Source of the DNA: Phytophthora colocasiae
Lineage: Eukaryota > Oomycota > Peronosporomycetes > Peronosporales > Peronosporaceae
Length of the DNA: 64,000 nt
NCBI GenBank assembly: GCA_018806915.1
Contig: JAGKQI010000098.1
Coordinates: 806,001 to 870,000 of the forward strand
Reading direction: 5' to 3'
The position numbers and the translations under genes were made by a program. Under the pieces are notes generated by a model that ran no database searches, was not told the DNA's origin, and was given only the letters and a program-made list of their open reading frames with translations. Positions 13,114-63,002 of the stretch are shown here, piece by piece; position 1 is the first letter of the stretch; each line of letters starts with the position of its first letter.

Positions 13114-14799
13114 TGTCGCGAAGTCGGTGAAACTTTGGTCGCGGAGCAGGGGGCGTATAGTGAACCCTAGTTATACGACTACTAAAAAGGGGTTTTCAGA
13201 GCCGTACAACGGTAGGTTGGCGTGTGGTACCTTGCGGTATCCTCGTGGGTTCGTTGTCTTCAGAAATATGACCCTCGCCGGAGTCTGAGAATGTGTTGTG
13301 AAGAGAAGTTGGGGTTCCCTCGGAGTCTGGTGTCGGTATTCAGGAAATCCTTCCAGGAGCGTTCGGGAGTCGGAATCTCTGGGAACCAAGATGGTTTCCA
13401 GGAAGTCGGCGGTCGAAAAGAGGTTAATATACCAGAGAAAGTCTGAAATCGGTGTCTGAATATCACAAATCCAGAACCGAGATACCTGATTTTCAGAGAT
13501 AAACAACCAATATACAGAGTTCGAAAATATACAAATATATACAGCCGTTCTTATTCTTTCTAGGCCCTTGAACGGTGGGCTAACACTCCAGGTCAACTAG
13601 GGACTTGCTACCAGACACCTGGTCTGTCTGGTATCCCTTTACGTTCGCGCACCACCCTCTAGTATAGAGGGAAAATATAAACCAATACAATCGGCTATAT
13701 ATAACAGTCTACCTTGCACTCTGAAAACGACTGTCTAGTTTCCAGAGCCTGTCCAAACGAGCAATATGAAATGGGCTACCGCTAGAGACAAAACAAACGA
13801 CCCAACTAGGATATGGAATAGGCGGGTCCTTTCAGGTCTCTACGTTACCTGATCTCCACCTAAGGGGATTGAATTTGGTGGAGATCACACGACGTACGTG
13901 ATGACGCAGTGGCTTGAATACCTCTCAAGCGGACTTGTGCAGTAGCAAGCAAATTGAACTCTGTTTATCGTTTATCTTCCTCATAACTATCATATATCTC
14001 TGGTAACTCTCTCCTTCTTGTCGTCTTTTGCGTCCTTTATGCAGTCAGTCTTCATATCTCAGGTACTCTTGGTCTTTGTATACATCTGGTACTTTGACTT
14101 GGTCTCAGTATGCAGTCTGTGCAGCCGATCTCGATGGGTTGACAGGTAGAGACGTCATTACGGGGGATGTGCAGGTCAGTAATCACTTGAATGCGTGACT
14201 TGAACTTGGGTTCACTTGGTTTCAGTATGGTCTTGGATCTTCGGTGGTTTCAGAGTTCGGTATCCTGGTTTTCAGAGTCTGATATCACTTGGTTTTCAGA
14301 GTCTTAGTCACTCAGAGTTAGAGATACCAGAGTCTTGAGTACGAAACCAGAGTACGGAGCACTAATGCTTCAACGTACATGAAGATCTTGAGGGTTGCGC
14401 GGGTGCGCGGCGTCCGGCGCGCGATACTTGGTCTCTGCGGGTATATATTGTGAATCCTTGAACCATCCATCGTCGCGCTGGACGGTAACGGGATGAGGTC
14501 TCTCAGAGATACGTTATTCTGAGAGACTTTCCGCCAGAACTTAGGCACTCATCGTCGGGGAAAGTCCGGTGACCAGACAGAGTGTAGTTGACCTTCAGAG
14601 TTGTGCACACTCTGAAGTACACTTCTGGTCCTTTGGGCCCCTTTACAGTCAGGCGAAGGTTTATCCACAATCTTCCACAGATGTCGCACGGGTGCGGCCG
14701 CGTCCCAAAGTCCCTTTCGCTTATAACCCATAGTATAACCAATCACATCGTAACGTAATATCCACCTGTCGCTCGAAAATCGGAATTAACATCATGTCA
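13114..14799 (-). repeat. 3' LTR of element A
   Basis: On the minus strand it starts TGACATGATG and ends CGCGACA. It is nearly identical to 28571-30256 except for a block at 13890-13949 whose sequence is unrelated to the corresponding 29349-29406. The words TTTTCAGAG and CAGAGTC recur, for example at 14265-14330. Short ORFs in the LTR occur in both copies, but nothing suggests they are translated. Confidence 0.95.
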
Positions 14800-14812
14800 A
14801 CCGCCCCTCCTG
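14800..14812 (-). promoter_or_regulatory. Polypurine tract of element A
   Basis: On the minus strand the sequence just before the 3' LTR reads AGGAGGGGCGGT, a purine-rich run in the position where plus-strand DNA synthesis is primed. Confidence 0.6.
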
Positions 14813-15012
14813 GTCACGATCCATCAGTGCGGAACTTTCTCCAAGCTGTGTATCATGACCAGGCCTATCAAACATTCTGATAGACGGTTTTCAGAGCGTA
14901 GCGTAGCTGCAACTCTTTGCCAGTTGCCTGGTTTTCAGAGTCTCTGGTGTCCCGTCGCACAATCTGATTCTCTCAGACTCAGAAACTTGAATTTGACTTG
15001 CCTAACAGGCGA

Positions 15013-15019
15013 TCATTTC
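15013..15019 (+). promoter_or_regulatory. Initiator in front of the antisense ORF of element A
   Basis: GATCATTTCC contains TCATTTC, a match to TCAYTYY, with its last base 22 nt upstream of the ATG at 15041. The corresponding place in element B has TCATTTC followed by ACCATTTCC, close to the full Initiator plus flanking-element consensus. This suggests that the antisense gene has its own promoter inside the element. Confidence 0.5.
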
Positions 15020-15040
15020 CAAAACTCCGTCCTTTCACTC

Positions 15041-18000
15041 ATGACTGAGGAAACGAACACTTCCCTGAGCTCAAACGCCCCAGCGAGTGGGGTGGCAGGC
15101 GACGCCACAGGCACTTGTCCTTCTTCGGCAACTGCCGGTATATCGCAGGGTGGAGATGTTGGTTCAGCCACATCGCCAGGTGGCAGCCCTAGCGCCCCAG
15201 CCCATGCATCCAAACCTACCGACTCACAGGTCGATGGTCCGATTGAGGACCTCCCTGGTAATGACATGAACTCGGCCGGTGCTGGTGATCTCTCGCCACC
15301 GGTGGCTTCACGTGGGGAATCTCACTCTGAATTCTCTGAGGGAACTCCTGGTATCTTCAGACCGCGAGCCTTTGGTGCTCCACGGCTTTTGTCCACAGAA
15401 GAGGTCGATCGGCTGTTTCGTCAGGGTCTGGTGACGTCCACAGAAGACCAAGTCACGGCGTTGGGGGACTCTGACGTTCCCCAGAATTATATTGCTCCCA
15501 TCGTCAAACCAGAGGGACGTGCCTTTCTGGTGAGTACTCCTGCACGGGCTGAAGATTTCAGAAGAGGGCGCCACATAGCGAACGCGTACGGTGGCCCCTG
15601 TGTACTCGTGGGTTACGAGGCACTCACTGATGAAGACCTCCGGGAGCTGGAGCGGGTGATCCCAAGCTTTGATCCTGACGAAGTTGTGTCTCCGTGTGCT
15701 CAGACTCCAGACGTGCGCACTCTGGATGCTCTGACGTCGTCTGTGGAGGTTCGCCGGGAACTGGGGTCTCTGGATTCTCACGTCTCCCCCACTCGGCTTG
15801 CCGAGAAAGTTTTTCGGACGGCCGGATGCCTAAAACTTATGACTGCTGCTCACCGTCGCCTTCGGGAACGTGTTGGTTCTCAGAACGGTGTCGCCTTGAT
15901 TGATGCTGCAGCAGCGCGCTCTGAATGCGAAGAAATCAAGCGTGAGTGGGTACTGCACTGTCAATACTGGAAACACGAGCTTAAGTGTGCCCAGCAAGAC
16001 GCCGGTGTGGTAGAAGAACGCATGACTTCGGAGATTCAGGATCTCAAGGCTCACTACCAGGACCAAGTGGAAGCTCTGAAGTCGGACAAGGCTGCTCTGA
16101 AATCCCAAGTCGCTGATCTTCAAGCGCAGGTCTCGATTCTGAAATCGCGTCCTGAAGTCAAACCCACAGATCCATGGGGATTCTCAGAGTTCTTACAAGA
16201 GAACTCTGAAATCTCCGGTAATTGGGATCGGCTCCATGACCTTCTGGTGTCGTTTCAGGAGAATACTATCGTTCCTGATAACTGGACGACTGTCATCAGT
16301 GTGACAGCTTTGGACGCACGGAAGAAGCCTGTTCCTGATTTCAAGAAACGGCTTTCTGAAGAACGAGCTCGTTGGGCTGCTGAGAAGGCTGCGAAGACCA
16401 CCAGAGTTCTGGATCTTACTCGTCCAAGTGCTGAAACCTCAGAGTTCAAGAGCGAGAGCCCACGGTACCTGTCATATCCACCGAAGTCCCAGACTCTGAA
16501 ATTATCTCCGAAGCGACCGTTCAAGTGGGACTCCAAGAATTTGCAGCGTCGCCCGTCCGGACACAAGCCCGTTGAAGAGTCGGCGCTTCCGGCGAATGCA
16601 GATTCTAAGGTGGCAAAGTCTGAGGTCCACAAGAGGCTCCCTGGTGACGTGGTCTGGAAGGAAGTTCGACCCGACCTCCGCCAAGCCCTGCTATCTGGGA
16701 TCAAGTATGATAAAGCCATGGAGTGGTTAGCGTCAGACAAAGAGGCTCACAGTCTCTTTAGCAGTCCGGTTCTCATTCAGATGTTGGTGAGCCTGGTATT
16801 CTCTCGTCGCCTGGATTCCACTCTCTGGGCCAAGTACGTCCCTGAAGTGTACTACCAGATGGCCGACGAGGTGGTGGATCGTCACATCTCAGCTGGTACC
16901 GAGCCTGCAGCCTGGGGTGATCTGGATGGTCACGTAAATTATCCAGAAAGTGATGTCGAGTCCACCGCCGACAACCCCAAGGATGATCCGGATTACAAGG
17001 ATTCTGGTGTGATCGAGTCTGGAGACGGAGACGACGACGAGAGCTCTGATGACGGTGCGTCTGACGACAGCGATTCCGAGAGCGACAAGTCTGAAGACAA
17101 GAAGTCTGAAGACAAGAAGTCTGGGAGCAAGAAGTCTGGGGACAAGAAGTCTGATGACCACCCGCGTCCTGGTTCCAAACGTCCCCGGGACTCTGATGAC
17201 GACTCAGACTCTGATGATGGACCTATCATCCCCACCAAGAAGTCCAAGAGAAGTATCGCATCCGTAAAGGCCCATACCAGTCCCAAGTCTCGCCCGAAGT
17301 CCACCAGTGGAAGTGGATCGAAGCCCAAAAGTTCTTCTGGGAAAGCGCGTAGTCTGGTGTCCAAGCCCTATAACTCCCTGACGGTCAAGGAGCTCCAGGT
17401 GGTGGAAACACCAGACTGTGAGGCATCCTCCTGGTTGTACTATGGTATCAGGGTACAACGAGTGAGCTCTACCAAGACCACCACTGGCCAGACATTGGGT
17501 TTCCCAGACTACGAGGTGCACAAACACTCATGTGCCATCCTCAAGAAGCGCTGGGACTCTGAGCGGTACTGTGCAGTCCTCCGCAAGAAGCGCGCCCCTT
17601 GGAAAGTCATGTTCGACAACCGATTCTCAGAGTTTTATTTCCACAAGCGGGAGGAGCTGGGGCCCATGGTGTTGGCTGACGTGGAAGACATCGTGCGCAG
17701 CATGAAGAAGCATGCTCAAGCCTTCTGGGAGCGTACGCATTGGGTGACCATGGATGTTGAGGCTGACGACAAGCCTGCGGAACTTCACAAGTACCGGTCC
17801 ATGCGTCGAGCCGCCATGATTCGTCAGCACAACGCCCTCATCCGTAAGGTCCTGGGGCACAAAGATTTCCCAGAGTCGCTGCTTTCAGAGCCTGGCATCT
17901 GGGTTGTCCCAGACAAGTCCTGCCCTTGGATCTGGCAAGATCCCAGAGTCGCAGAGCTCGGGGGTCCCAAGTGTCTGAGTCTGGAGACGCAACTGGGTGA

Positions 18001-18145
18001 CTTGGACGCTATTGAGCCTGCTCGGATGCAATGGGCCACGGTGAATGTGGACGAAGAGTGGCTCCAGTACGTCCCCGCTGACATCAAGAAGGATCATATG
18101 ACACCTACGGAGCGTTCCGAGAACCCGATCTCCCTTCACTACTGA
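15041..18145 (+). CDS. Antisense ORF of element A (1,034 aa), unknown protein
   Basis: This uninterrupted ORF is opposite in direction to gag-pol and lies between the chromodomain end and the 3' LTR. The frame is open upstream to 14855, but the ATG at 15041 follows an Initiator and aligns with the likely start in element B. Numbered from the 14855 ATG: 63-170 low-complexity Ser/Ala/Gly; 170-350 a conserved region; 355-435 coiled coil (EEIKREW...VEALKSDKAALKSQV); 440-480 conserved (WDRLHDLLVSFQ); 600-690 conserved (AMEWLASDKEAH, LWAKYVPEVYYQMAD); 715-835 acidic then Lys/Ser-rich with nuclear-signal-like KRPRD and TKKSKR; 840-1096 a compact C-terminal domain. No known family is recognised. Element B encodes a homologue in the same place. 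A nuclear, nucleic-acid-associated role is only an inference from composition. Confidence 0.7.
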   Translation: MTEETNTSLSSNAPASGVAGDATGTCPSSATAGISQGGDVGSATSPGGSPSAPAHASKPTDSQVDGPIEDLPGNDMNSAGAGDLSPPVASRGESHSEFSEGTPGIFRPRAFGAPRLLSTEEVDRLFRQGLVTSTEDQVTALGDSDVPQNYIAPIVKPEGRAFLVSTPARAEDFRRGRHIANAYGGPCVLVGYEALTDEDLRELERVIPSFDPDEVVSPCAQTPDVRTLDALTSSVEVRRELGSLDSHVSPTRLAEKVFRTAGCLKLMTAAHRRLRERVGSQNGVALIDAAAARSECEEIKREWVLHCQYWKHELKCAQQDAGVVEERMTSEIQDLKAHYQDQVEALKSDKAALKSQVADLQAQVSILKSRPEVKPTDPWGFSEFLQENSEISGNWDRLHDLLVSFQENTIVPDNWTTVISVTALDARKKPVPDFKKRLSEERARWAAEKAAKTTRVLDLTRPSAETSEFKSESPRYLSYPPKSQTLKLSPKRPFKWDSKNLQRRPSGHKPVEESALPANADSKVAKSEVHKRLPGDVVWKEVRPDLRQALLSGIKYDKAMEWLASDKEAHSLFSSPVLIQMLVSLVFSRRLDSTLWAKYVPEVYYQMADEVVDRHISAGTEPAAWGDLDGHVNYPESDVESTADNPKDDPDYKDSGVIESGDGDDDESSDDGASDDSDSESDKSEDKKSEDKKSGSKKSGDKKSDDHPRPGSKRPRDSDDDSDSDDGPIIPTKKSKRSIASVKAHTSPKSRPKSTSGSGSKPKSSSGKARSLVSKPYNSLTVKELQVVETPDCEASSWLYYGIRVQRVSSTKTTTGQTLGFPDYEVHKHSCAILKKRWDSERYCAVLRKKRAPWKVMFDNRFSEFYFHKREELGPMVLADVEDIVRSMKKHAQAFWERTHWVTMDVEADDKPAELHKYRSMRRAAMIRQHNALIRKVLGHKDFPESLLSEPGIWVVPDKSCPWIWQDPRVAELGGPKCLSLETQLGDLDAIEPARMQWATVNVDEEWLQYVPADIKKDHMTPTERSENPISLHY

Positions 18146-18530
18146 AGCTCAGGTGTCCACCATGGTGCCCACGGGAAGGCTGCATTTTCGAGAAGCCAAA
18201 TAGTTGTCTGCATTTGTGCCGTAAACCCCTGGCCTCAGTGTAGCTTCCTAATCCCTTAATCTTTCAATATCATTCCACGTAATCACACTTCTTCTCATCA
18301 TCTCATTGTTCATGACCTCGTATTCTCCAGTACTTAATTCTCCACAAACTCACTTCCATATTCACATTCACACAGTCGTTTTATATAAGCAGTAACATGG
18401 TCGATCACATATCCAAACGCACGAAGTTCAGAAATAGGTCTCTGAAAACACGCACTCGGACTACCACACTCTAAAAGTCAATGTCTGAAATCCTTCAGAT
18501 ATCAGACTTCCAGATGTGTTTTCAGAGTTA
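18146..18530. other. Convergent gap between antisense ORF and pol
   Basis: The antisense ORF (rightward) and pol (leftward) end tail to tail here. No ORF or clear poly(A) signal is seen. Sense transcripts must cross the whole antisense gene to reach the 3' LTR, so the two RNAs would be complementary over about 3 kb. Confidence 0.5.
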
Positions 18531-19625
18531 TTAGACTCTGGGGTGATCGTCTCCAGCCTGCATCGCCTGAAAACGGGCTCGTGCTCGTGCACTCTGGTTG
18601 AATTCGTAAAGTAATGCTCCACAGTTCAACTTCGATAACGGCAACCACTCAGTTTCATCGTAACCTTTCCACTTAATCAGATATTCGCGCAGGCGTCTGG
18701 ACGTCCTGGTACGCTTGTTCCAGTGGGTATCCAGAATCTTCTCCACTTCATACTCGTCGTTTTCAGTATCAGGTTCCCAACTATCTTCTGGTAACAGGGC
18801 GGCGTCAAAATCATCATCTTCTGGAATCTGGAGTTCCACCGTGGGTCGTCTGGGGAACAGAGCCCTTGGCTTCAGACGGCTCACATGCACCCAGGGGTTC
18901 ACGCGATAGCCGGTATCTTCAACCTTGAGTCGTACTCTGAAATCGACCAGCATCTCCTCGATCCTGAAGGGTCCGTGCCACATGTGTGCTAGTTTTCTGC
19001 TCAGTCCCGTTTGTACCTTAGGGATGTAGAGCCATACGGCGTCGCCTATAGCGAAACCTGACTTCAGACGCTCTGATAACTCGTTCCACTTTCTGGTCTG
19101 TTCTTCAGATCGGTCACGCTTTGCCTTCTTCTGGAGATCTTCGGCACATGCCAGAGCATAGCTATAGTCTCGTTGCATCTTCCTTCTCCATTCGTACGCA
19201 GTTCGCTCCTGAGTCGTCGATGGCTTGGGTCCAAGCGTAGCGGACACCGTCCCGTGAGCATCCCAACCATGTACCAGGTAGAAAGGCGTTTCCAGACGGG
19301 TGGCATCGAAGGACGTATTCAGGGCAAACATCAGACGTTCGGCGTGATCATCCTAGTCACTTTGATCAGCTTCAGAGATATATGCCTTAATCGCGCGCAC
19401 CACAGTCTGTACTGATCTCTCTTGCTGGCCGTTGGCTTGAGGCCGGTATCCTAGAGTAGCTCGTTGTCTGCTACCCAAAAGTTCCCTGAAACACTTGAAC
19501 ACCTCACTCATAAAGCGAGGATCTTGATCATGACGAATCAGAGAGCTAGCACCAAAGTTTCTGAAAACGCGTTCCTCATAGCCTCTGCTACATCCTGAGC
19601 AGTGGTGACACTCATTGGCTTGCAC
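18531..19625 (-). pseudogene. Element A pol: integrase C-terminal part and chromodomain
   Basis: The segment from 19625 contains the second catalytic Asp (LIRHDQDPRFMSEVF) and the Glu (YRPQANGQQERSVQ) of the integrase core. An in-frame TAG at 19353-19355 replaces what should be a Trp codon (SD-stop-DDHAERLMFALN). The tail continues to 18531 with the GPFRIEEML integrase C-terminal fold and a chromodomain (YEVEKILDTHW, YLIKWKGYDETEWLP), which in related elements binds modified histones. It ends QAGDDHPRV, a terminus shared with element B. A frameshift near 19,560 separates it from the upstream integrase half. Confidence 0.88.
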
Positions 19626-21493
19626 ATCACGTATCCTGAAAACATATCCTGGAACAGCAAGAGAAATGTGTTTCCACGTGCTGATTTCGGCATGTGGGTC
19701 ACAAAATCCATAGACACCACTTCAAATGGCCGGCTGGGCTCAATATTTCCAGGGGACGGTCCAGGATTTGGGGGTCGCCCCTTGCCACTGGCACAGTCTA
19801 CGCATTCCTTCACAAATCTCTCCACATCGGCATACATGCCCAACCAGTAAAATTCCGAACTCAGCTTCTCAAAGGTTCTCCTGATTCCTTGATGTCCACC
19901 TTGGTAGTCTTCATGAGCATAGTGTAACAGGTCTGGATACAAGTCTCTGGGAACCACCAGTCTGAGTTCGTCAACATTGTCCCGGGGCCGCTCTCGAGTA
20001 GCGCGACTCAGGCGATATAGTACATCTCTAGAATCCAGAACGAAATCCTCAGCAACTCTGGCAAGCTTCCTGACTCGGGGTCGTGGTAAACCTCCCACGT
20101 CACCTTTCAGAAACTTCATGAGTTCAACCAAGTACGGGTCCTGGCTCTGATGCGCCTTGATCCGTCGCCAGCGTTCTGCCTGGAACTCCAAAGGCCCCAA
20201 AGGTTCTCGTTCGTCATCATCCTCAGGCAGATCAGCGTCAGGCGGAGCTTGGGCACGGGTTACAGCAATCAATACTCTAACCGATCGAGGTAGGGGTGCG
20301 GATTCCGGATCAAAAACATTCTCAGACTCTGGTAACGCATTATGATTTTCAGAGTCTGGTATTTTTGACTCTTGAACTTCCATGTCCGGGTTTGAACAAG
20401 GCTTCATCAGTTTCTCATGAACTTTGGATACCAATTGCAGGTGCATAAGTTCTTCCTCGTCTCGCACCTGCCAAACTTCCCCAAGGGTCAAAGTCTTCGA
20501 GGTCAGGTAATCCGCCGCTTGGTTAAACTCGCGCTTCACATGCACCAACTTCAGAGTCCGAAACTTGGTTTTCAGAGACTCAAATTCGGCCAACCTCCGT
20601 TGCAAGTTAGGCTGATTGCAGTTGATTAGTCCCTGAGCCTGTTGTATCGCGATGCGCGAATCTCCCAAAACCACCAACTCCTGTATTCCGTGGTCGAGTG
20701 CCATCTTCAGACCATAATTCAGGCCACAGTATTCCGAGTCATTCACCGTGACATCCGTCAGGGGAAACCCTCGGGCTTCCAGAACGCTCCACCCCGGGAG
20801 TTCCCAGAGTATACACCCACAGCTTCCCAGACGGGTAGACGTCTTTGCGGCACCATCAAAACTCAGAACATAGCCCTGATAATCTGCTTCCAGCATTTCC
20901 ACACTGATAGGAACTGGCGGCTTGACTCGCCCCTTGACTGGGATCAGATTTTCAGAGACTTCGTCCAGATGCTCCCTGGGGGTGATGCCCGCACCGAGTA
21001 TAGCTGGGAGTCCATCTTCATCACGCTGAACCCTGCGGATCTCCAAGTTCCACTGCGACAACTTCAGACCCCACCTGACGTTTCTGCCGTCGGTGGAATT
21101 CGATGTTAGCAGCCATTTCAGAACAGAGTATCTAGTATAGACCACAATCACCGGACTTGACTCCACCAGAGCTCTGAAGTTTTCCAAAACTCTGAGGATC
21201 GCAATCACCTCCTTCTCAGCGATATGATACCTGAGTTCGGCGTCGTTCAGGACACGACCCGTGAACCGGACCGGGTGTATTATTCCCTCATATTCTTGTC
21301 CCAAGACTGCTGAAGCAGCCCAAGGGTTCGCATGCGGAATGACAACAAACGGTCTGGTTCGGTCTGGATGTCTGAGTAGTGGGGTAGAGACTATCTTGCG
21401 TTTCAGAATCTCGAATGCCTCCTTTGCACGAGTTAGGTCTCGTCCAGCACGAATCTGCTCGTCGGTCAGCTCATAGAGAGTAGCAGCGATCAC
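19538..21493 (-). pseudogene. Element A pol: RNase H, second RNase H, integrase N-terminal half
   Basis: The first RNase H (RPFVVIPHANPWAASAVLG, AEKEVIAILRVLE) is the Ty3 type that follows the reverse transcriptase. A second RNase H follows at about 20,900-20,480, of plant/archaeal type with the acidic residues SFDGAAK, NDSEYCGL, LGDSRIAIQ and NQAADYL all present. Then come the integrase zinc finger (HYAHEDYQGGHQG, CVDCASGK) and the first catalytic Asp (VSMDFVTH). At about 21,535 a single-base shift cuts it from the reverse transcriptase (SLNYYNKYIEDLPV lies in this frame upstream of 21493). At about 19,560 a second shift cuts it from the rest of the integrase. Confidence 0.88.
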
Positions 21494-21503
21494 TGGTAAA
21501 TCC

Positions 21504-22322
21504 TCAATATACTTGTTGTAATAGTTGAGGCTCCATGAAACTCTGAACTCCCTTCAACGTAGACGGAAATGGCAGTTCTTCAACTCCTTTGACAATCTTA
21601 GGTGTTGCCGTCAGACCCTCGGCACTGATTTCGTGGGATAGGTACGGTATCGACAACTTCCCGAACTCGCTCTTGGGCAAACTCACAGAAATGTTCCAAT
21701 AGCGAAGCCTGAAAAGCAGGGCGTTCAAATCGTCACATAATTGGTCCCAAGTCGGTGCTCCATGTGCGATGTCGTCGATGTATGAACTCCTCCCCAGGAC
21801 TGGGCCCATGCATGTGGGGACGGGAATATTCCTCTGAAAGACGGTCATCTGACTTGTGAGTGTTGGCATCTCTGAAATCGGAGTATGGTTCTCAGAGTCT
21901 GAAAGATGTTTTTCAGAGTCCTGAGGCTGGAGTTGTAGAAATTCCAGAACCTCCGCATCAACTTCGGCTTCTTCTTCTGGTGACAGTCTCACGAATCCCC
22001 ACAGGCAATTGTCTAACATAGCCTGATACACAAGAGGGGCGTTCTTCAGACCAAACGGCATCCTTACCCACTGAAAATGCCCAAACGGGCAAATGAAAGC
22101 TGATATCAGTCGTGCGCGCTCCGTCATCCTGATCGCCCAGAAACCGCTAGCCATATCCAGGCTCATGAACCACATGGCAGCCTCAAAACCAATTAGGAGA
22201 TCGTCAATAAGAGGTAGAGGGTAACGCGACAGTTGAATGAAGCCATTCACAATGCGATAGTCGATGCACATTCGTATGTCAACACCATTCTTCTTAAAAC
22301 GATCACAATAGGAGATGCCCAC
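21504..22322 (-). pseudogene. Element A reverse transcriptase core
   Basis: Contains the conserved blocks IDYRIVNGFI, PLPLIDDLL, MSLDMASGFWAI, MPFGLKNAPLVYQ and the catalytic YIDDIA (near 21,775). An insertion of about 55 residues rich in Ser, Glu and Asp lies between the LKNAP and YIDD blocks and is unusual for Ty3 enzymes. The upstream part (ETGLIEYSNSPWASPIVIV) is in another frame, and loss of one A near 22,290 explains the break. The downstream break near 21,535 is another one-base shift. Confidence 0.88.
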
Positions 22323-24238
22323 GGGGAGTTAGAGTACTCGATCAAACCAGTTTCCAGGAGTTTCTTTAGAAGCTCGTACACCTTCAGCATGAGATGAGGA
22401 GCGACGGATCTCGGACGTTGAGCCACCGGTTTGGCATCTCCCACATCCAGATCACAGACCACGCCCCCTGCCGGTGCGGGTGCTGCATTGCCATCTCCCA
22501 GGAATATTTTCCTGTGGTACCTCAGAATATCACGCAGTTTCTTCTCCATTTCTGGGGTCGTCTTTCCTGGTTCTCCAACATCAGCGTTATCGATATCACA
22601 TTCTGGTGTCAACTCTCCCAGCTCAGGCAACATGACCAGTTGGTCGCGTAATTGAGCGAGGAGTTCCGTGCCTTCTCGCATATATACACCTGGCTCCAGG
22701 TCCAATTCTTCATTCGAAACATTCATGCACCGCTCGTATTCCACTCGTAATTTTTCCACAGGCGTTCCAGGCATCCCCTGAATGGGGATATCCCAGGATT
22801 CATCCATTAAGTCGAAATCATCCGCGGGTAACTCAGGGGTCTGAGAGTCACCTAAGAGACACTCAGGCTTTGAGTCAAGGACGTCACCGTCAATAACAAC
22901 GGACGAGTCACCAGGGTCTGTATATGGAGTACTTTCAGAGGATGTTTCCAAATCTCTGGTATCTGTACTGATGTCCGCACTTCCCGTTGATTCACCGTAG
23001 CAACCATCCTCCGTCTGGGTGAATGCATCCAGGGCGAAGCGTACTCGTTTCACGGTCGGTGGTGACTCTGGTTTCACGAACTGCACTCGAGCGTTGTCAA
23101 ACCTTGGACGTTGCAATATTTCAGTCGGCCACGGGTAGTCCGGGCGATCTACACACGGGGGTTGCGGCATCAGAGCCTCTAACTCCGCCTCTCTCTTCAT
23201 ACGTTTCTTAGTCTCTGGTGACGGGGTGCTTTCCAGAATCAGAACTTCCCAATCACGATAAGCAGCGGAACCTGGACGCACGAAACGTCCATGCCTTGGG
23301 AAGAAACCATATTCCACGATCCTCGCGACATCAGAAAGTTCATTGACCCACGTGTTTTTATCAGAGATGTTTACCACGCGAACGGCCACAGGCCAAGATC
23401 GAGCCGCATAGATCAGCTGGGTAACCCAGCGGTCACCGCGTCCGGCCCACACGACTTCCCTTTGGGGATTCGTTGGCCCATAGTCAATTCGGACAATAAA
23501 TTCTTCGCCTGGACTCAGAAGAACAGCCTCACATGGTCTAACCGACCTGTTACGACCAATGTGATCACCAGGTTCCCAATTGCACATCATCACCACTACC
23601 TCGTCTGGTAACGATACCAGACCTTCACGAGCGCTAATTCTCATTCCGGCGGCAAACATAAAACCCATTCCCAGAAGCACGTCAATTCCTTCACCGATAT
23701 TCGCGACCCAAACATCTACAATATATACCACTCTTGGCCCAAGTGTCAACTTGATCTCAGCGCTGGCACCGATATATGTTGGAACACCACCCATTCCCGA
23801 CACTTTGGTCTGCTTGTGCGACTTGAGTCTGAGTCCGAGCTTACGCGCAAAGTCGTAACTCAGAATATTTATGGTCGCACCAGTGTCCAGAAGAATCTTG
23901 GTTCGATGGTCATTCACAGCACCATACACCATCACCACATCCCTCTTTGAACGGTCAGGATAGTTGTCTTCCCACCAGCCATAACACTCGCCATCCTTCA
24001 ACCTGAACGACACTGAGTCGTCTGGTGTCGGATCGGTGTCGTCGGCGATCTCAGGTAACTCGTTCCCTGAGTTTCCAGAAGGTATGGTCGATTCTTGGGC
24101 AAAAGTAGTCATGCATTGTTGAGTGTTATCGTGAATCTTTCTCAGCTCTGGTCCTACACACACTAGAACACACAACTCAGGGGTAACGCCATGCCCGGCG
24201 CGTTTCGGATCCCCATCCGACGGGCATATTAGTTTAAC
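22247..24238 (-). pseudogene. Element A protease and reverse transcriptase N-terminus
   Basis: In the -1 frame relative to gag, this ORF starts at the frameshift site (VKLICPSDGDP...) and contains a retropepsin active site KILLDTGATINILS near 23,885 and the flap-side VLLGMGF. A long linker follows, and then the start of the reverse transcriptase (LLKKLLETGLIEYSNSPWASP). It ends at 22247 because of the one-base deletion near 22,290. Retropepsin processes the Gag-Pol polyprotein. Element B keeps the equivalent of this part only. Confidence 0.88.
24229..24238 (-). promoter_or_regulatory. -1 ribosomal frameshift signal at the gag stop, element A
   Basis: The minus strand reads GTTAAAC immediately followed by the gag stop TAA, with zero-frame codons TTA AAC TAA. 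GTTAAAC has the N-NNW-WWH form of known -1 slippery heptamers. The -1 frame continues without a stop into protease. Element B has the identical arrangement at 57184-57193. Confidence 0.7.
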
Positions 24239-26634
24239 GGCTTCCCAGAGTCTGCCTCATCACTCAGGAGTTTCTCCCGTAGGTGGTTCGGCATGTCCTT
24301 GAGTGCACCTTGTCGAGCGAGTTGCTTGAGTGCTTCCAGAGTTTTCAGATCTTCACAGGGTTTTCCAGGGTGTACTCTTCCACATACTTCACAAGGTGGC
24401 ATCCGACACATTCGACTCGGGTGTCCCTTTTCCTGACATCGGTCACACGTGACGTCTCTCCAGCAATCTTCTTCTGAGTGTCCTGAGCGTTGAAATTTTT
24501 CACAGAACTTGTTTCAGTAGCCACTATTCTCATGACGCCTTTGGTGGAACCCTTGACCTGACGATCCAGACGGGGACTGGGGCGGCGGACGCCATCCCAT
24601 GTTATCCATCACTCGATATACCTCATTTGTCAGAGTCTGCGTCCAATCTGCACTTGGTGGAGCCTTTGAATTGTTCGAAGATGCCTGTGCAGTACTTTCA
24701 TCACGGGTAGACTCTGAAGTCGCACTTGGAGTTCTAGAATCACCCGTCTGATCTCTGGTATCCTGATTGGATTTCAGAGATTCCTTAGGATTTTCTGAGT
24801 TTTCAGAGTCATAGTCTTCAGAATCCATATCTCTTGCGACATAAGTCCGATGCACACGCTTGGGCTTGAACTGTCCTCGCGGAATATTGTCAGCCCGGAA
24901 ATCTCGAGACTTGGCAGGGGTCATTTCTTGGTCACCAGTTCGCCACACATCTTCATCTTGCTGCAACGCATATTCCAAGTCTGAAATCCGTCGAAATCTC
25001 TGACCTTGCAGCGACGTTTTCAGGCGCGCATCCTTAAGCTTCGTGATGAATCGTAGTACATGCTTCTCAAGACGCTTGGACGATTTTCGGAAATCGATGT
25101 CAGCTTTTCCGGCGGCAGAATTAAGTCGGTAGAAAAATTCAAGCGGGGTCTCAGAGTCTTTCATAGCCATAGTGAAGTATCTCTCAGAATACGAGGACCG
25201 AGCTTTGCAATAACGTTTCTTGAACTCTGAGGACAGCTCTTTCCAGTCACGGGATACACTTTTGGGAAGCTGGTTAAACCAGTCTCGCGCAGACACAGGG
25301 AGCTTCAACTTGAGTTCCTGGATGCGCGTCTTGGTCGACCATCCTCCTTGAGAAGCCATATTTGTAAACCGCTCCCACCAGTGGACACGTTCCCTGAGGG
25401 TAGCTCTGGGGTCGAATTCCCCAAGGTTGTTCAAGTTCATGAACGGCCTTAGCGTCAGAAGTGTGGTTCCGGCTTGCGCTTGAGCTGCTGCCGTCAAATT
25501 CACCACTTCACCTGGCTCTGAGTTCTCCGATGACGAGCTCGCAGAGTCTGAACTTGAATCGTCAGAGTCTCCACCAGAGTCTGGCGCTCTATCATGACGC
25601 TTCGCTCTGCGAGACGCTCTTCGATCGCCATTAGGCCGTCTAGCTTCAGTTCTCTGCGGCGGATCTCGCCTCGGAGTAGGCGCACGTCTGGTATCACCCT
25701 TGGTTTCTGTCACCGAAGTCGCTTGAGTCACCTGGGGGGCCGTAGCAGTAGTAGTGCTGCCATTCCTCTCGGCCTTCACTCGCTTCGTCCCCGCGCTTCG
25801 TGCAGGGGTGCCTTGCTGGAAGGTTGCAACCTCTCGAGATTCCGTCTTGAGAGCCGGTGAATGTGACATGGGTTCAACCCCAACCCTTCTTGCGTCACTT
25901 CTGATTTCCAACCCTGATACTGGATACATAGTTGCAACTTCAGGGTTGCCTGTTTGTAACGCTTGGTTTGAAGTTGCTGAATCAGGGTGACCGACCCTTC
26001 GCGCCTCTTGAACTTTAGATAATGTCGCTCGAAGGTTTCTCAACTGACCGGCTTGGAACCGTTGCATGTTCTGAGAACTTTCTTTCTCCCTGTCGCGCTC
26101 GGCTTCCATGACATTCATTCGCTGCTGTAAGGCTTCCATTTGAGAAATCCAGTCTCGTTTCATCTCGTCAGTCGCACGCGCACGTTCGGCTTCGGTCTCG
26201 GCCTCTCTCTGTCGCCAGCGTTCAGCAAACTCTGATTCCCGACGTTGGTTTTCAGAGTTCTGGAGCTCCGTTTTCAGAGTTTCCAACTCTGTCGCGCTGC
26301 GATTCCTGAGCTTGCTTTCAGATACCAGACTTCTGCGTTCTTCAGCGTCGTCGGCACGTCTCTCTGCCTCCAGCCTCGCGTTTTCCGACTTCAACAAGCG
26401 CTCGGTGAGCGTCTGAATTTCGCGCCTTGCCTCCAAGTCACGTTGCTCTCGACGACGATCGCGTTCCATGGACTCCAAGCGTTCTCGGGCCAAGAACTCC
26501 ATCTGCGCTTGCTCCATCCGGCTTTGCCACTCCTGCTGTTGCCTCATGACGTTCAACTCGATCTGGGCAGGTCCTGATCTCTGAGAACTTTGAGCTTCAG
26601 ACTTCGTACGACTCGACGCGATGGAACTCAAGCG
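24229..26634 (-). pseudogene. Element A Gag, coiled coil, capsid and zinc knuckles
   Basis: From the right: a long Glu/Arg-rich coiled coil (QQEWQSRMEQAQMEFLARE to EAERDREKESSQ), a basic/Ser-rich linker, the Retrotrans_gag-like capsid region (WWERFTNMASQGGW, FKKRYCKARSSYSERYF, SETPLEFFYRLNSAAGKA), then CCHC knuckles. A TGA at 24514-24516 interrupts the frame just before the knuckles; the same frame continues to the stop at 24229. The first knuckle lost a Cys (CEKFQRSGHSEEDC, where B has CENCRNFGHVKEDC); CDRCQEKGHPSRMC is intact. At the right edge a single TGA (26635-26637) separates it from the N-terminal Gag part in the same frame. B lacks that stop. Confidence 0.85.
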
Positions 26635-28477
26635 TCAGGACGGTGGTCTTGGAAGGTCTTCACTCTTCACACTTTGGCGGTGGCTCTGGTGACTTTTGCT
26701 TTGGGTGGAGACAGATACAGGCGGAATCTCCGGAGTCAATTGTCCGAAATCCCGTGAAGAACTTCCGACAGACACCTGGTTTCCAGACTTCGCGTCCGGC
26801 ACCTCTGGTTTCTCTTCCGGCATGTCGACATCTTCGATCTCTGGTTTCACTGGTAACAGCGTTAGCGTCACTTGGATCCCCATGCCCTCAGAGATTGCTC
26901 CTCCCACATCAGCGCCTTGAGCGATTAACGCCAGACTTCCTGTGGACAGCGACATATGTGATGCCGCCTCTCGACTCATGGATATCAAGGACGAGTCCGT
27001 AGAGCTTCCGCGTGAAGTCTGGAATCCCGTCGACTGGTCGTCTGAGGTCCCAATGACACTGGGAATTGGCACGTCCGAAATCCGAGTCTGAGAGGTGCTG
27101 TGATCTTCAGACATTGGATTTTCAGACTCCGGTCGCGTGTTATCAGAGCGACTCTCGTACTGCGGCAATAAAGACAGCGATGGGCGTCGATAAAGCTGAC
27201 GGTGTTGACGGGACTTGTGGGCGCGGCGGTCTATGCTGTAAGCGCTTGGACTGCGGTTGCTCGTCACTGCTGGAACCATTCGAACTGTGCGTCACTCGGA
27301 GTCCGGTCACCCGGAGTCGCATGATCAGTCGTTGTCCTTGTAGGTCAGCATCCTTGTCAGGTAATACACTGTCTGCTTCGTTCTTGCCAGCTGTGTCTTC
27401 TTGCTTCATGCTTTCTGGGAGTCGGCAAACTTGTAACCTGGCGGTCATTGTGGCCCACTCAACCAATTCCACTGCGAGTCGACTCTGAAGTTCGGACGCC
27501 ACACTGCGTACTTGGGACTCGAAGACAGCTGACGCCTTGGTCTGAGACCATCTTGGAAGCAGGTTCATGAATTCGAAACCCGCCTCGCACAACATTGTCT
27601 GAAGGATGGCCACACACTCTGGCGCTGTCAACGTGCTCATCGGGATCTCGACATAGGAAAGATCTTGGATTCTACCAAAACTGTGACGCCTCACGTGAAA
27701 CTCTGAAATCCACATATCCTCAGGGAAGACGGAGGAACATCGCCATTTGATGTAGTCGCCGGTCGCTGCAGCAGCCTTCTGGAAAGCATCAGCACTAGGC
27801 TTCATTGTCGGCCACATATACTCGACGCTTGGCGGGACAACCTTGCCTGTGTCCATATCTCTCCAGCGGCGGAACTCACGGCGCACATACCTCAGAGCTC
27901 GTTCCCCGTCAAGCGAATCAGCCCTCCCAGACTCATCAGACGGTGTCTTCAGAGACTCTTCAGACTTGATCGCCATGTCATCAGACATAGGTGCGTCTTC
28001 AGACTTTGGGGACCGTGGAACATGCTCTTCAGAGAGTCCGGGTTCTGGTTTCACTTCATCCACGGACTGGCCGGAAGTTGCCGAATCTGAACACAGATCG
28101 ATCACTTCCGGGGACTCAACCATATCGGCGCCTCCCTCAGACGCCTCATCACCACCCTCGCGGGCAGTGGTCACCTCGTCACCAGAAGCTTCAACTTCTG
28201 ACGGGCCTTCGGAACCTTGTTCACCAGGGACAGCAGGTGTCTCTTGAGCTTCTGGTTCCTCAGCAGGCTGGTCTTCGACCGCCGGTTCTGGGACGCTCAC
28301 ATTCTCAGCTGCCTTCTTCTCTCGCGCAGCTTTACTCTTCTCGCGGGCCGTCTTCTGGATAGCATCCAAGTCTGGTTGCTCCTCAGGCGACAAACCTTGT
28401 AGACGCTTGGATTGGCGTGTCGGAATACTCCGACCACGACCACGGCGTCCTCCTCTCGTAGATCCTGGTGTAGCCAT
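26635..28477 (-). pseudogene. Element A Gag N-terminal extension
   Basis: ATG at 28477 opens MATPGSTRGGRRGRGR, then RLQGLSPEEQPDLDAIQ (B has RLKGQLPEEHEDLDTI). An acidic Ser/Glu-rich region follows, then a conserved block around AILQTMLCEAGFEFMNLLP (B: AVLQTLLFEAGFGFVNLVP) and MTARLQ. The first frame stops at 27143; the second runs 27279-26635, so a one-base shift lies between. In B this region and the coiled coil are one frame, so the native protein is a very long Gag (over 1,200 residues). No domain is recognised in the conserved block. Confidence 0.75.
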
Positions 28478-28550
28478 CTTGAATATAGACGCTTGACAGG
28501 AAACTTTCTCTTCTTGTACTCTCAAATCCGGTGATATCACGATTCCAAAG

Positions 28551-28568
28551 ATCCGGGCACGCGCACCA
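28551..28568 (-). promoter_or_regulatory. Primer binding site of element A
   Basis: The plus strand reads ATCCGGGCACGCGCACCA and ends 2 nt from the 5' LTR. It has the form of a tRNA 3' end: T-stem CCGGG, acceptor strand CACGCGC, discriminator A, CCA. Reverse transcription would start from that tRNA. The matching tRNA gene is not in the window. Confidence 0.7.
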
Positions 28569-28570
28569 GT

Positions 28571-30256
28571 TGTCGCGAAGTCGGTGAAACTTTGGTCGCG
28601 GAGCAGGGGGCGTATAGTGAACCCTAGTTATACGACTACTAAAAAGGGGTTTTCAGAGCCGTACAACGGTAGGTTGGCGTGTGGTACCTTGCGGTATCCT
28701 CGTGGGTTCGTTGTCTTCAGAAATATGACCCTCGCCGGAGTCTGAGAATGTGTTGTGAAGAGAAGTTGGGGTTCCCTCGGAGTCTGGTGTCGGTATTCAG
28801 GAAATCCTTCCAGGAGCGTTCGGGAGTCGGAATCTCTGGGAACCAAGATGGTTTCCAGGAAGTCGGCGGTCGAAAAGAGGTTAATATACCAGAGAAAGTC
28901 TGAAATCGGTGTCTGAATATCACAAATCCAGAACCGAGATACCTGACTTTCAGAGATAAACAACCAATACACAGAGTTCGAAAATATACAAATATATACA
29001 GCCGTTCTTATTCTTTCTAGGCCCTTGAACGGTGGGCTAACACTCCAGGTCAACTAGGGACTTGCTACCAGACACCTGGTCTGTCTGGTATCCCTTTACG
29101 TTCGCGCACCACCCTCTAGTATAGAGGGAAAATATAAACCAATACAATCGGCTATATATAACAGTCTACCTTGCACTCTGAAAACGACTGTCTAGTTTCC
29201 AGAGCCTGTCCAAACGAGCAATATGAAATGGGCTACCGCTAGAGACAAAACAAACGACCCAACTAGGATATGGAATAGGCGGGTCCTCTCAGGTCTCTAC
29301 GTTACCTGATCTCCGCCTAAGGGGATTGAATAGGTGAGAGATCACACGGCAACAATCCTTGGCGTGGCCTTGTAAGCAGAAATGCAACGACTTCTGGGCT
29401 ACACGGCAAATTGAACTCTGTTTATCGTTTATCTTCCTCATAACTATCATATATCTCTGGTAACTCTCTCCTTCTTGTCGTCTTTTGCGTCCTTTATGCA
29501 GTCAGTCTTCATATCTCAGGTACTCTTGGTCTTTGTATACATCTGGTACTTTGACTTGGTCTCAGTATGCAGTCTGTGCAGCCGATCTCGATGGGTTGAC
29601 AGGTAGAGACGTCATTACGGGGGATGTGCAGGTCAGTAATCACTTGAATGCGTGACTTGAACTTGGGTTCACTTGGTTTCAGTATGGTCTTGGATCTTCG
29701 GTGGTTTCAGAGTTCGGTCTCCTGGTTTTCAGAGTCTGATATCACTTGGTTTTCAGAGTCTTAGTCACTCAGAGTTAGAGATACCAGAGTCTTGAGTACG
29801 AAACCAGAGTACGGAGCACTAATGCTTCAACGTACATGAAGATCTTGAGGGTTGCGCGGGTGCGCGGCGTCCGGCGCGCGATACTTGGTCTCTGCGGGTA
29901 TATATTGTGAATCCTTGAACCATCCATCGTCGCGCTGGACGGTAACGGGATGAGGTCTCTCAGAGATACGTTATTCTGAGAGACTTTCCGCCAGAACTTA
30001 GGCACTCATCGTCGGGGAAAGTCCGGTGACCAGACAGAGTGTAGTTGACCTTCAGAGTTGTGCACACTCTGAAGTACACTTCTGGTCCTTTGGGCCCCTT
30101 TACAGTCAGGCGAAGGTTTATCCACAACCTTCCACAGATGTCGCACGGGTGCGGCCGCGTCCCAAAGTCCCTTTCGCTTATAACCCATAGAATAACCAAT
30201 CACATCGTAACGTAATATCCACCTGTCGCTCGAAAATCGGAATTAACATCATGTCA
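28571..30256 (-). repeat. 5' LTR of element A
   Basis: Near-identical partner of 13114-14799. The replaced block is 29349-29406. Other visible differences are single bases (for example near 28,947 and 30,130). Confidence 0.95.
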
Positions 30257-31760: not shown

Positions 31761-31826
31761 TTAATCATAACCAAGATCAACTTGCATCATGTCACCTTCA
31801 GTGACATCTAAATCGAGCTTCTTCAC

Positions 31827-32900: not shown

Positions 32901-33042
32901 TCTGCTTTGCTGCCGAGTACGAGGGTTCGGGGACGGGCGCTCAGCGGCACGCCTTCATCTTTGAGCCATAACTGCTGGACTTCTCAGCGCGTATTGATAA
33001 GGTCTACCGAAACACCAATGAAGAAGAAGAAAAGAAAAGAAA

Positions 33043-34206: not shown

Positions 34207-34211
34207 TGTTA

Positions 34212-49578: not shown

Positions 49579-49599
49579 TCATTGTATGTGATCTATCCA

Positions 49600-51451: not shown

Positions 51452-52942
51452 TGTGGCGAAGTGGGTGAACACTTTTCGGCTTCCGGACTGGAAGTCGGTC
51501 GCCCAGAGTGTATAGTGCGTGGCCAGGTGGATTCTGGAATAAAACGTCCAGATGCCAAGTGGGGTCAGTCTCAACCTTCCGGGATCCTATGGGTATCCAG
51601 AAGGCAGAGTTGGCGTGTGACCTTGTGGTATCCTCTTGGGTGTCGTTTGTCTTCGCGTATCCGGTGTAGTCACCAATGAGTTACTTCTGGATGCCGATCA
51701 GGTCCAGATGTACAAATGCCAGGTACTTTCCAGATGCAGTCGTCTGGAATCAGTGAAAGACTATTAGCAAAGTCTTCCCCTAGCGGTTAACCAATACAAT
51801 ACAGAGAGTTAATATGCAAATATACAGCCGCTCTTATTCTTTGTGGCCCTTGAGCGGTGGGCACTCCAGATGCCAGTCGACGGAGTCTGATTCCGGAACA
51901 CTGGCTCGGTTCCGGGACTCTTACAAGCGCACCACTTCCGGATAACCACTTGGTTTCCGGAAGACAATAATCAAATGGAGTCCGGAATCACTAGAAAGTA
52001 ATCCGGATAACCCTCAATATACAATCCTATCACACAGTAGTTAATTCAATACAGTTCCAAGGGGCTAACTACTAACAACCTCCTAAAAACGCAGTTATAA
52101 TATGAAATGGGTATCCGGAGTCCGGAATACCAACTGGAATATGAAATAGGAAGCTCACTTCCGGATGCGCCTTCCGAATCCCTTACCTAACTTGGTCTTG
52201 ACCTTTGTGGAGAATCCCGCGGCGGTGTACGCTGTCGTCGCGGCCTAACGCTGGCGGAGGTGACCCCGAGCCCTCTTCTTGAGGCTGGTCGGCGGTTCTC
52301 GGCAGTGGTGGCTTGTTGGAACCTCCCGCACACTCACTTGCGTCCTTGGTGGCAAATTGAACTCTCTGTTATTTATGTATAAGTATTTTGCTAAAGTCTC
52401 TGCTAAACATCTTGATTTCACTATAGAAAGGGGCAGGGGGCGCGTGTCTCTGTCGCCGAAGCCCTAAGAATTCCGGCTGGTGCCGAGCACATCCTGGTCG
52501 GTCGTCTTGGTCGGTCGGTAATCACTTGACTTGAGTATGCTTGGAGCTTCAACTGGATACTGGGTACAAATTCAGGATTTCAACTGGACACTGGGTACAA
52601 ATCAGGATTTCCCCGGATGCCAGTCCTTTCCAAATGCCCTTGGTGTTCAGATTCCACGTGACCTTCTTGGCTGGCATCTGGAGCTCTTTTCACAGGAAAT
52701 ACTTGGATACTGTATGCGCACCTGGTTCAGCTGTATCAGAGCTTTGGATGCAGTTGGTCGACTCGGGATTCCGGATCGGACATGGATTCCGGAGATTATC
52801 GAAGGTATTCCTGAAGCGCAACGCTTACATCTTCCCAGATTCCCGTCCCAAGGTTGTAAAATATCAGCCAATCAGCTTCCAGATCAATGGATGATCCTGG
52901 GAGGCGGCTTCTGGTCGAAAATTCAAACCCACAGCTTCATAA
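51452..52942 (-). repeat. 3' LTR of element B
   Basis: Partner of 61504-62989 (a few small indels and substitutions). It starts TGTGGCGAAGTGGG on the plus strand and ends CTTCATAA. Shares short blocks with the LTR of A: TTCTTATTCTTT, GGCCCTTGAGCGGTGGGC, GCAAATTGAACTC. The word TCCGGA is frequent. Confidence 0.93.
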
Positions 52943-52953
52943 CCGTCCCTCTC
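52943..52953 (-). promoter_or_regulatory. Polypurine tract of element B
   Basis: The minus strand reads GAGAGGGACGG just before the 3' LTR; same position as in A. Confidence 0.5.
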
Positions 52954-53383
52954 ATCAAGAGCTCTCATTGAGAGATTTACTTTCGAGCTGATAGATCATG
53001 ATGAGACGAAGCGCGAATCAGTCTCGCCAGAGGCCACATCACATCTGGCATCCGGAGTTCAGATCTACGTTCCCAGATTCCACTCGTGGTCACGACAACG
53101 GTTTCGGTTCCAATCAATATCCAGATCAAGACTTCACTCATCCACTCGCAGATCGCAGCTGGTCCAGCTATCCAAGAGACACGCATCTCAGGTCGGCCCG
53201 TCCACATCCAGGTGTCATACATCCGTATTCACTATATCCAAGTTCCCGATTTCCAAATGACGCAGTCCCTGGGTGCGAATCCATCCATCGGTTGGCTGAC
53301 GTGGCTTCTTTTCTGCGTCGTGTCCCCGATCGCCCGTTCCCAGCATACGACAGAACCTCGAAGAACTTCCGCTTAATTCGCGG

Positions 53384-53390
53384 TCATTTC
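53384..53390 (+). promoter_or_regulatory. Initiator in front of the antisense ORF of element B
   Basis: GGTCATTTCACCATTTCC matches the oomycete Initiator plus flanking-element consensus at 14 of 17 positions; TCATTTC ends 28 nt before the ATG at 53418. Confidence 0.55.
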
Positions 53391-53417
53391 ACCATTTCCC
53401 AGCTTCCGACCACTCCA

Positions 53418-55259: not shown

Positions 55260-55363
55260 CAATCCAAAACATCAATAATCCAATTGTAATCAAAACAAAA
55301 TTCAGTCGTAGTCGCAATCCAAAAGTTCCATCGTCCAGACATCCAAAGTCGGCATCTGGGTGA

Positions 55364-61345: not shown

Positions 61346-61479
61346 CATACCGGATCCAGAATCCGCGTCTCTCCCTTTGCGCGCGCTTTCACACAACCAC
61401 GATTAGAAAGTTAGTTAGCACTCAGTTCCCCTGAAACTAATCGAATCAAATATAAAGTAACTCGGTTATACACTCGGTA

Positions 61480-61500
61480 TCGAATCCGGGCACGCGCACA
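61480..61500 (-). promoter_or_regulatory. Primer binding site of element B
   Basis: Plus strand TCGAATCCGGGCACGCGCAC, four to five bases from the 5' LTR: T-loop TCGAAT, T-stem CCGGG, acceptor CACGCGC. The same tRNA 3' end as in A, but the CCA is altered here (CACAAGC). Confidence 0.6.
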
Positions 61501-61503
61501 AGC

Positions 61504-62989: not shown

Positions 62990-63002
62990 CTTGTCCCTCC
63001 AT
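62990..63002 (-). pseudogene. Start of the ORF interrupted by element B
   Basis: Minus strand ATGGAGGGACAAG: Met-Glu-Gly-Gln, then the duplicated CAAG. Joined to 51447 and below it reads MEGQGDLPDKSGERGG without a break, so B landed four codons after the ATG. Confidence 0.75.

Follow-up and report, generated by a model that had tools for sequence, protein, structure and literature searches.

Antisense open reading frames (ORFs) between pol and the 3′ long terminal repeat (LTR) have been described in plant Ty3 retrotransposons, where the gene, termed aORF-3R, is represented by GENE23 of Grande and by its counterparts in RIRE2 of rice and Retand of Silene, and is reported to be kept in most copies (PMC7264820, PMC11963269). 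For Grande, a nuclear product and a promoter of the gene's own have also been reported (PMC7264820, PMC11963269). Boty, a non-plant element found in the fungi Botrytis and Sclerotinia, is likewise listed with an antisense ORF between pol and the 3′ LTR, a likeness that we draw from its description. The Chronos elements of oomycetes, known from Peronosporales and Pythiales, have a Ty3 pol with integrase and chromodomain and an extra ribonuclease H (RNase H) (Ustyantsev et al, 2017; PMC5348765); the word "antisense" does not occur in the main text of the paper that defined them. Here, we describe a 64,000-bp stretch of the Phytophthora colocasiae genome (contig JAGKQI010000098.1, positions 806,001 to 870,000; hereafter the window), in which a Chronos-like Ty3 element, element A, carries a long ORF that runs antisense to gag-pol and lies after the end of pol, before the 3′ LTR (Table 1). 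Judged by its sequence, this ORF is a true accessory gene of Chronos-like Ty3 elements that codes for a protein, and the interpretation of the first-pass annotation of this DNA, which had proposed a conserved antisense gene, is supported.

In its antisense position between pol and the 3′ LTR and its presence in most copies, the gene resembles plant aORF-3R. However, the plant aORF-3R/TRP28 proteins correspond to PF04195, which was not matched here, the hosts belong to another kingdom, and the present element has a chromodomain. In six antisense proteins and two fragments from element B, a second, truncated element of the window, PF04195 gave no match (E ≤ 10 and E ≤ 1), and across the genome it gave a single one with an E-value of 0.6, below the cut-off. 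HBZ of human T-cell leukemia virus type 1 (HTLV-1) is another antisense gene near a 3′ LTR, with a nuclear-type protein and, possibly as here, a promoter at the LTR edge. This likeness is by description only: the basic leucine zipper (bZIP) of HBZ was not matched in the antisense proteins scanned, which gave only weak coiled-coil or leucine-zipper matches below the cut-off, and the present protein has about 1,000 amino acids. The first-pass annotation knew of no such gene in oomycetes, and we likewise found no oomycete antisense accessory ORF among the open-access papers searched, supplements aside. The class as such is known in plants and fungi; the present protein, together with a motif dispersed over the whole element (see below), appears to be new. 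The first-pass annotation had noticed neither the spread of the gene over several families, nor the broken state of the element B copy, nor the motif.

A genome search with the ORF met 1,253 candidates in its first look, scored 42 of them, and returned at least 57 matches; of the 42, we fetched 22 family-A copies (the 20 best-scoring and two lower ones). The ORF is full length without a stop in 11 of the matches listed, the last of which begins at residue 1 or 2. In each of the 22 fetched copies, the chromodomain faces the ORF or its remains tail-to-tail from the opposite strand, and an LTR lies ~56 bp upstream of the ORF in 20 of them. Counted from the pol side, 75 of the 82 A-type pol C-termini (at least 95% identity) among the matches listed have the ORF within 800 bp, always tail-to-tail, as do 36 of the 62 F-type pol ends (family F is introduced below), 35 of them tail-to-tail; misses in these counts do not mean that the ORF is absent. 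An ORF-less subfamily was considered and dropped, because both of the two copies that were read among the seven A-type pol ends without an ORF match contain part of the ORF, one of them with an internal deletion.

Selection on the protein was assessed in the 12 of the 22 fetched copies that hold an uninterrupted full-length frame; L021 and L027, which are open for more than 1,000 codons and end early, were excluded. Over these 12 copies, the ratio of nonsynonymous to synonymous substitution rates (dN/dS) of the ORF is 0.135 (bootstrap 95% interval 0.118–0.166) rather than near 1, and variable columns are distributed 161/124/469 over the three codon positions. This pattern shows purifying selection acting on the predicted antisense protein. 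Pol pieces from 9–10 of the same copies, pieces with less than 70% coverage being excluded, gave values of 0.06–0.19. The other forward frames yielded 1.8–2.0 and two of the reverse frames 1.5–2.3; the low value of the third reverse frame, 0.19, stems from the third positions that it shares with the ORF. In four copies, the other forward frames contain 33–38 and 61–66 stops and the three reverse frames 18–43 each. Since the alternative frames are thus full of stops and dN/dS is 0.135, a chance frame is excluded, and the uninterrupted plus-strand frame that the first-pass annotation had taken for a gene in element A is real. Numbered from the first ATG, the strongest constraint (dN/dS 0.05–0.10) falls on residues 171–320, the coil at 321–440, 601–690, and 691–850, with intermediate values (0.13–0.24) in residues 441–600 and the C-terminal part and weak constraint (0.62) in the N-terminal linker 63–170. 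Among individual copies, L042 combines a pol frame that is open for 1,909 codons with an antisense gene that has lost ~930 bp internally, suggesting that such copies may depend on protein from others. In L012, L016, and L017, the antisense frame is open though the chromodomain frame is split near residue 170–177 of 266.

Homologues extend beyond the two copies compared in the first-pass annotation and are plentiful in this genome and in other Phytophthora. A search with an element B fragment brought up other families at about 51%, 36–45%, and 28% identity, with many frames of more than 1,000 codons. One copy each of families F, C, and D carries an ORF homologous to that of A over most of its length (51, 27, and 25% identity, respectively), with LTR-like sequence upstream and a chromodomain downstream on the other strand. 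Between A and F, protein identity is 51% in the ORF, 78% in the RNase H–integrase part, and 93% in the chromodomain, and the proportion of synonymous differences (pS) is near saturation in both the ORF (0.73) and pol (0.74). Near saturation in both alike argues that the ORF was inherited together with pol, and it disfavors recombination between the two families. Predicted relatives among the matches listed come from P. citrophthora, P. palmivora, P. capsici, P. ramorum, P. megakarya, P. fragariae, and P. sojae, the nearest to the ORF of A being those of P. citrophthora (82–83%) and P. palmivora; protein searches, which are of word-limited sensitivity, listed no relative outside Phytophthora.

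The first-pass annotation had assigned a long antisense ORF to both elements of the window. This holds for A, but element B is a deletion derivative in which the frame is interrupted and truncated, with matches that stop near residue 590 of a 940-residue family-C relative. Segment 51001–63500 contains no match to the reverse transcriptase (RT), RNase H–integrase, or chromodomain pieces of A, and because B is truncated and these pol pieces are unmatched, its ORF does not lie between the pol end and the 3′ LTR in the ordinary sense. Its antisense frame stops close to the protease frame. The LTRs of A and B do barely align, as had been stated; apart from chance-length matches, they share only short patches of about 80–88% identity.

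Two start codons remain candidates for the antisense ORF of element A, at 14855 and 15041. The first ATG lies at a similar distance from the LTR edge in all five families (55 bp in A and F, 58/61 in B, 62 in C, and 61 in D; one copy per family). In A, F, and D, it opens the reading frame of the complete ORF; in C, it is out of frame, and in element B its frame stops after about 149 codons. Over the 59 codons of the leader between the two ATGs, A and F differ at 18/15/33 first, second, and third positions, a third-position excess; dN/dS of the leader is 0.28 with a wide interval (0.09–1.0), and the first ATG is missing from one of the 12 intact A copies. A CCAAT box lies inside the LTR at −61 from its edge in A and F, at −72 in B, and at −73 in C; none was found inside the LTR of the family D copy. 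Median distances in Phytophthora infestans are 83 nt from CCAAT to Initiator (INR) and 50 nt from transcription start site to ATG (PMC3599244) and would fit a transcription start just inside the LTR edge, where no INR was seen in one copy each of families A, F, B, C, and D. The first-pass annotation placed an oomycete Initiator before the start in both elements of the window. Against 2,000 shuffles, the 16-nt consensus match stands for B (14/16, P = 0.0025) but is not above chance in A (12/16, P = 0.17), which has the 7-nt core; this core is kept in the 18 A copies whose start was located. Among the other families, the match is significant in C (P = 0.0005), borderline in D (0.03), and not significant in F (0.33).

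Numbered in its 1,034-residue form, the antisense protein begins with a mostly disordered-looking N-terminus, which is followed by a conserved region at about 155–275 and a coiled coil. The coil had been noted in the first-pass annotation and reappears in the AlphaFold2 model, where the residues with a predicted local distance difference test score (pLDDT) of at least 70 (101 of 1,034) comprise the coil and short stretches near 501–510, 581–620, and 921–940. When solved structures were searched by profile, the matches were weak (best E-value 0.089), and coiled coils made up many of them. The variable linker contains the sequence VLDLT, which resembles a small ubiquitin-like modifier (SUMO)-interaction motif. 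A similar motif is present in 22 of 26 proteins, using a search pattern chosen after the motif was seen; across 10 representatives, its D and L columns do not vary, with flanks averaging 0.16–0.18. A second such sequence, EVIDLCSDS, occurs near residue 125 of the first gag-region ORF of element A (27143–28477, minus strand); the feature may be common to two proteins of one element. Further downstream, an acidic tract is followed by a basic tract with KRPR/KKSK clusters resembling nuclear localization signals (NLSs), in agreement with the first-pass annotation, before the conserved C-terminal region; K[KR]x[KR] clusters were present in 9/9 proteins checked. Judged by hydropathy only, no clear membrane segment was found in nine proteins, whose highest 19-residue means were 0.7–1.6 (top window 1.58), and no Pfam domain scored above the cut-off in the six antisense proteins and two B fragments scanned.

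Element A also carries a dispersed short motif, CTCTGAAA/TTTCAGAG. Counting both LTRs, it occurs 33 times in 17,143 bp (mean 0.9 and maximum 3 in 40 shuffles); with one LTR (15.5 kb), 27 occurrences of CTCTGAAA compare with 1.34 expected from trinucleotides. The remaining 46.9 kb of the window hold five sites, two in element B and three in 33601–36000, a segment that contains an A-LTR piece. CTCTGAAA was not found in the neighboring RT-bearing stretch (30257–33600) or in two window controls of 10.2 and 15.3 kb comprising host genes and non-LTR and DNA-transposon frames. Other families are rich in other motifs, TCTGGTGAACA in F and ATCCGGA in both B and C. Exact CTCTGAAA reaches 17.5 copies per 10 kb in A, with 1.3 in F, 2.0 in B, 0 in C, and 1.4 in D; GGTGAACA reaches 14.1 in F versus 0.6 in A; and ATCCGGA reaches 34.8 in B, 50.7 in C, 14.3 in D, and 1.9 in A. 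The motifs of A and F differ yet both keep a TCTG core.

Weight matrices trained on each family find 66–136 own-family sites per 10 kb, or about one site per 75–150 bp in coding and non-coding DNA, compared with means of 10–14 and maxima of 21–31 for shuffle-trained matrices (12 each) and 2–11 sites per 10 kb in the window controls. A matrix trained on the LTR, leader, and gap of A gives densities per 10 kb of 76 for gag, 48 for pol, and 97 for the antisense ORF (controls 0 and 3), and one trained on pol gives 117 for non-coding DNA of A, with 8 and 10 for the controls. Sites lie on both strands in every family (A 79/65, F 34/44, B 82/55, C 41/39, D 22/24) and are dispersed with few tandem arrays, exact copies in A being densest in leader, gap, and LTR (3.6–8.3 per kb) and reaching about 1.2–1.4 per kb in coding parts. 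Genome-wide, GTTTTCAGAGT occurs 1,507 times (reversed word 121, scrambled word 148) and TGTTCACCAGA 1,346 times (control word 19), counts that are inflated by copy number; 81 of the first 100 GTTTTCAGAGT places lie within 16 kb of the A-type pol or ORF matches listed. Insertion beside motif-rich DNA was also considered: 16 flanks of 150 bp contain 5 A-type, 1 F-type, 4 B-type, 7 C-type, and 2 D-type sites, or 4–29 per 10 kb, too few for a targeting claim.

The VANDALs of Arabidopsis are DNA transposons. Their VANC proteins bind family-specific motifs of 8–9 bp and strip silencing marks from their own VANDAL copies (PMC5735166). The likeness to the present elements is that each related family has its own enriched short motif and a protein that diverges between families (PMC5735166, PMC10398659), although enrichment here is graded between A and F, common to B and C, and weak in D. 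Furthermore, VANC motifs sit in non-coding tandem repeats, whereas the candidate motifs here are dispersed and occur in coding DNA, too. With a confidence somewhat short of even, we favor the reading that the antisense gene encodes a nuclear accessory protein that recognizes the dispersed motif of its own family and, like VANC, controls the copies or counters their silencing. The gene would be transcribed from a promoter at, or slightly inside, the 3′ LTR edge; its product would enter the nucleus, as suggested by the basic NLS-like clusters and the lack of a clear membrane segment, and would multimerize through the coiled coil. It might contact SUMO or SUMO-modified chromatin proteins and associate with the element's own DNA by recognizing the short motif on both strands, and the resulting marking of its own copies could control their expression or counter silencing, as VANC does for VANDAL transposons. 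Because the motif occupies both strands, duplex DNA is a better candidate target than RNA, and RNA packaging is unlikely; since motifs differ between families, so is a host factor common to all of them as the reader. The chromodomain, which is nearly the same in A and F, seems too conserved to explain the change of motif. The antisense protein diverges faster than the compared parts of pol and looks nuclear, which makes it the first candidate reader. We hold with more doubt than trust the wider proposal of a self-recognition system, in which this protein would read a tag that its own family has accumulated on both strands, protein and tag would diverge together, and each family would thereby mark and control mainly its own copies.

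Several observations weigh against motif recognition by the antisense protein. The link between protein and motif is inferred from a correlation over five families with one or two copies each besides A, and gag or a host factor could be the reader instead, though sites on both strands disfavor gag as a strand-specific RNA reader. Specificity is graded: per 10 kb, the A matrix finds 93 sites in A, 59 in F, 24 in B, 13 in C, and 9 in D, the F matrix 100 in F and 26.5 in A, and the B matrix 136 in B, 129 in C, 43 in D, and 28.5 in A. The word TACCAGA is abundant in both A (16 copies, 10.4 per 10 kb) and F (11 copies, 14.1 per 10 kb). The family D motif is weak, its seed z of 7.4 lying below that of the best shuffle (8.7), and training on the gag region of A alone returned another k-mer and missed the motif. 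Motif sites also lie inside coding regions, unlike VANC targets, and among A copies they are only slightly better conserved than their flanks (0.035 versus 0.041), with fewer differences than in the flanks at 16 of the 21 (P about 0.03 by a sign test). Finally, AlphaFold2, run with a 20-sequence alignment, gave no usable fold (mean pLDDT 42.8, predicted template modeling score 0.23).

Alternatively, the product could be a nuclear accessory protein in the manner of HBZ or GENE23 that influences transcription, export, or integration by contacting other proteins and does not bind the dispersed motif specifically, the motif being read by something else. The nuclear product reported for the antisense gene at the equivalent place in maize Grande speaks for this, as do the protein contacts suggested by the coiled coil, the acidic and basic tracts, and the SUMO-like motif; we nevertheless rate it as rather unlikely, and it leaves the family-related, two-strand motif unexplained. 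The same coiled coil and multimer-like design would suit a further structural or packaging protein that resembles gag or envelope but is encoded on an unusual strand. Such a role is quite improbable given the NLS-like clusters and the lack of a clear membrane segment in nine proteins, and an origin from gag was rejected, as profile comparison with two gag-region ORFs of the window copy gave no similarity (hhalign probability 0.3% for each).

The geometry of the locus would also allow the antisense RNA to pair with about 3 kb of genomic RNA and feed small-RNA control, as proposed for plant elements. That the RNA rather than the protein is what matters is nonetheless improbable, for dN/dS of 0.135 over 12 open copies and full-length homology at 25–51% protein identity require selection on the protein; RNA action could be an additional effect beside it. 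The absence of a homologue outside Phytophthora among the matches listed would fit a captured host gene or a nested foreign element carried as a passenger of no use to the retroelement, which we consider the most improbable of these explanations: position and strand are the same in the families examined, pol adjoins every fetched A copy of the ORF, and purifying selection in A refutes the strong form of the idea.

The LTRs of element A, 1,686 bp each, share 97.4–97.5% identity, and the 4-bp flank CGTC matches on either side. Pol comprises protease, RT, an RVT_3 RNase H, an H2C2/rve integrase, and a chromodomain, spread over several frames in the window copy, and by this predicted domain content element A is Chronos-like. 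The integrase precedes the chromodomain (PF17921, 67 bits; PF00385, 32.2 bits); RVT_3 was matched; a Ty3-type RNase H was not among the domains reported for the broken frames of the window copy. Elsewhere in the window, an RT-bearing frame (30249–31730, RVT_1) adjoins element A and inverted A-LTR pieces lie at 34484–35115, which suggests nested insertions in 30249–36000. Transposase frames with DDE_Tnp_1_7 (piggyBac-like) at 42004–44943 stand beside a repeat with 30-bp spacing in the overlapping ORFs at 44519–44752, and an 83-bp tandem repeat in about four copies occupies 49264–49593.

Table 1. Positions of elements A and B, the antisense ORF, and associated signals in the window
Feature	Position	Strand	Remarks
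Element A, Chronos-like Ty3 element	13114..30256	−	sense is the minus strand; CGTC flanks at 13110–13113 and 30257–30260
3′ LTR of element A	13114..14799	−	TG...CA ends
Family-A motif CTCTGAAA/TTTCAGAG	13114..28570	.	one LTR and internal region; 27 exact copies, 144 weight-matrix sites
CCAAT box inside LTR of element A	14739..14743	+	−61 from LTR edge
Antisense ORF from first, LTR-proximal ATG	14855..18145	+	1,096 amino acids; uninterrupted frame
Initiator-like TCATTTC	15013..15019	+	28 nt before second ATG; 16-nt match P = 0.17
Antisense ORF from second ATG	15041..18145	+	1,034 amino acids; P. citrophthora relative annotated from matching place
Coiled coil, residues 283–368	15887..16144	+	pLDDT reaching 87 by block; Pfam matches to coiled coils weak, below cut-off
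VLDLT, SUMO-interaction-like motif, residue 456	16406..16420	+	in variable linker
Conserved, mostly helical region, residues ~535–645	16643..16975	+	dN/dS 0.052 in overlapping segment
NLS-like KRPR...KKSKR cluster	17177..17251	+	acidic/basic tract
Conserved C-terminal region, residues ~775–1034	17363..18142	+	poor AlphaFold2 model
Gap, antisense ORF end to pol end	18146..18530	.	median 392 bp over 75 A-type places
Pol C-terminus with chromodomain, element A	18531..19331	−	
Pol RNase H (RVT_3), H2C2 and rve integrase, element A	19538..20896	−	
Pol RT and protease frames, element A	21504..24112	−	split in window copy
Gag-region ORFs, element A	24514..28477	−	without Pfam match
5′ LTR of element A	28571..30256	−	
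Element B, deletion derivative	51452..62990	−	LTRs, protease, and gag-region frames
Family-B motif ATCCGGA	51452..61503	.	35 exact copies
Broken antisense frame of element B, N-terminal part	53448..54533	+	
Broken antisense frame of element B, further fragment	54891..55259	+	

That LTR elements can carry antisense accessory genes is known, and the role of these genes awaits explanation; a candidate DNA target that is related to the family makes the function of their proteins testable. If protein and motif are correctly paired here, retroelements of a lineage unrelated to plants would have evolved a VANC-like self-recognition, and the whole body of the element, its coding sequence included, would have been shaped by it.

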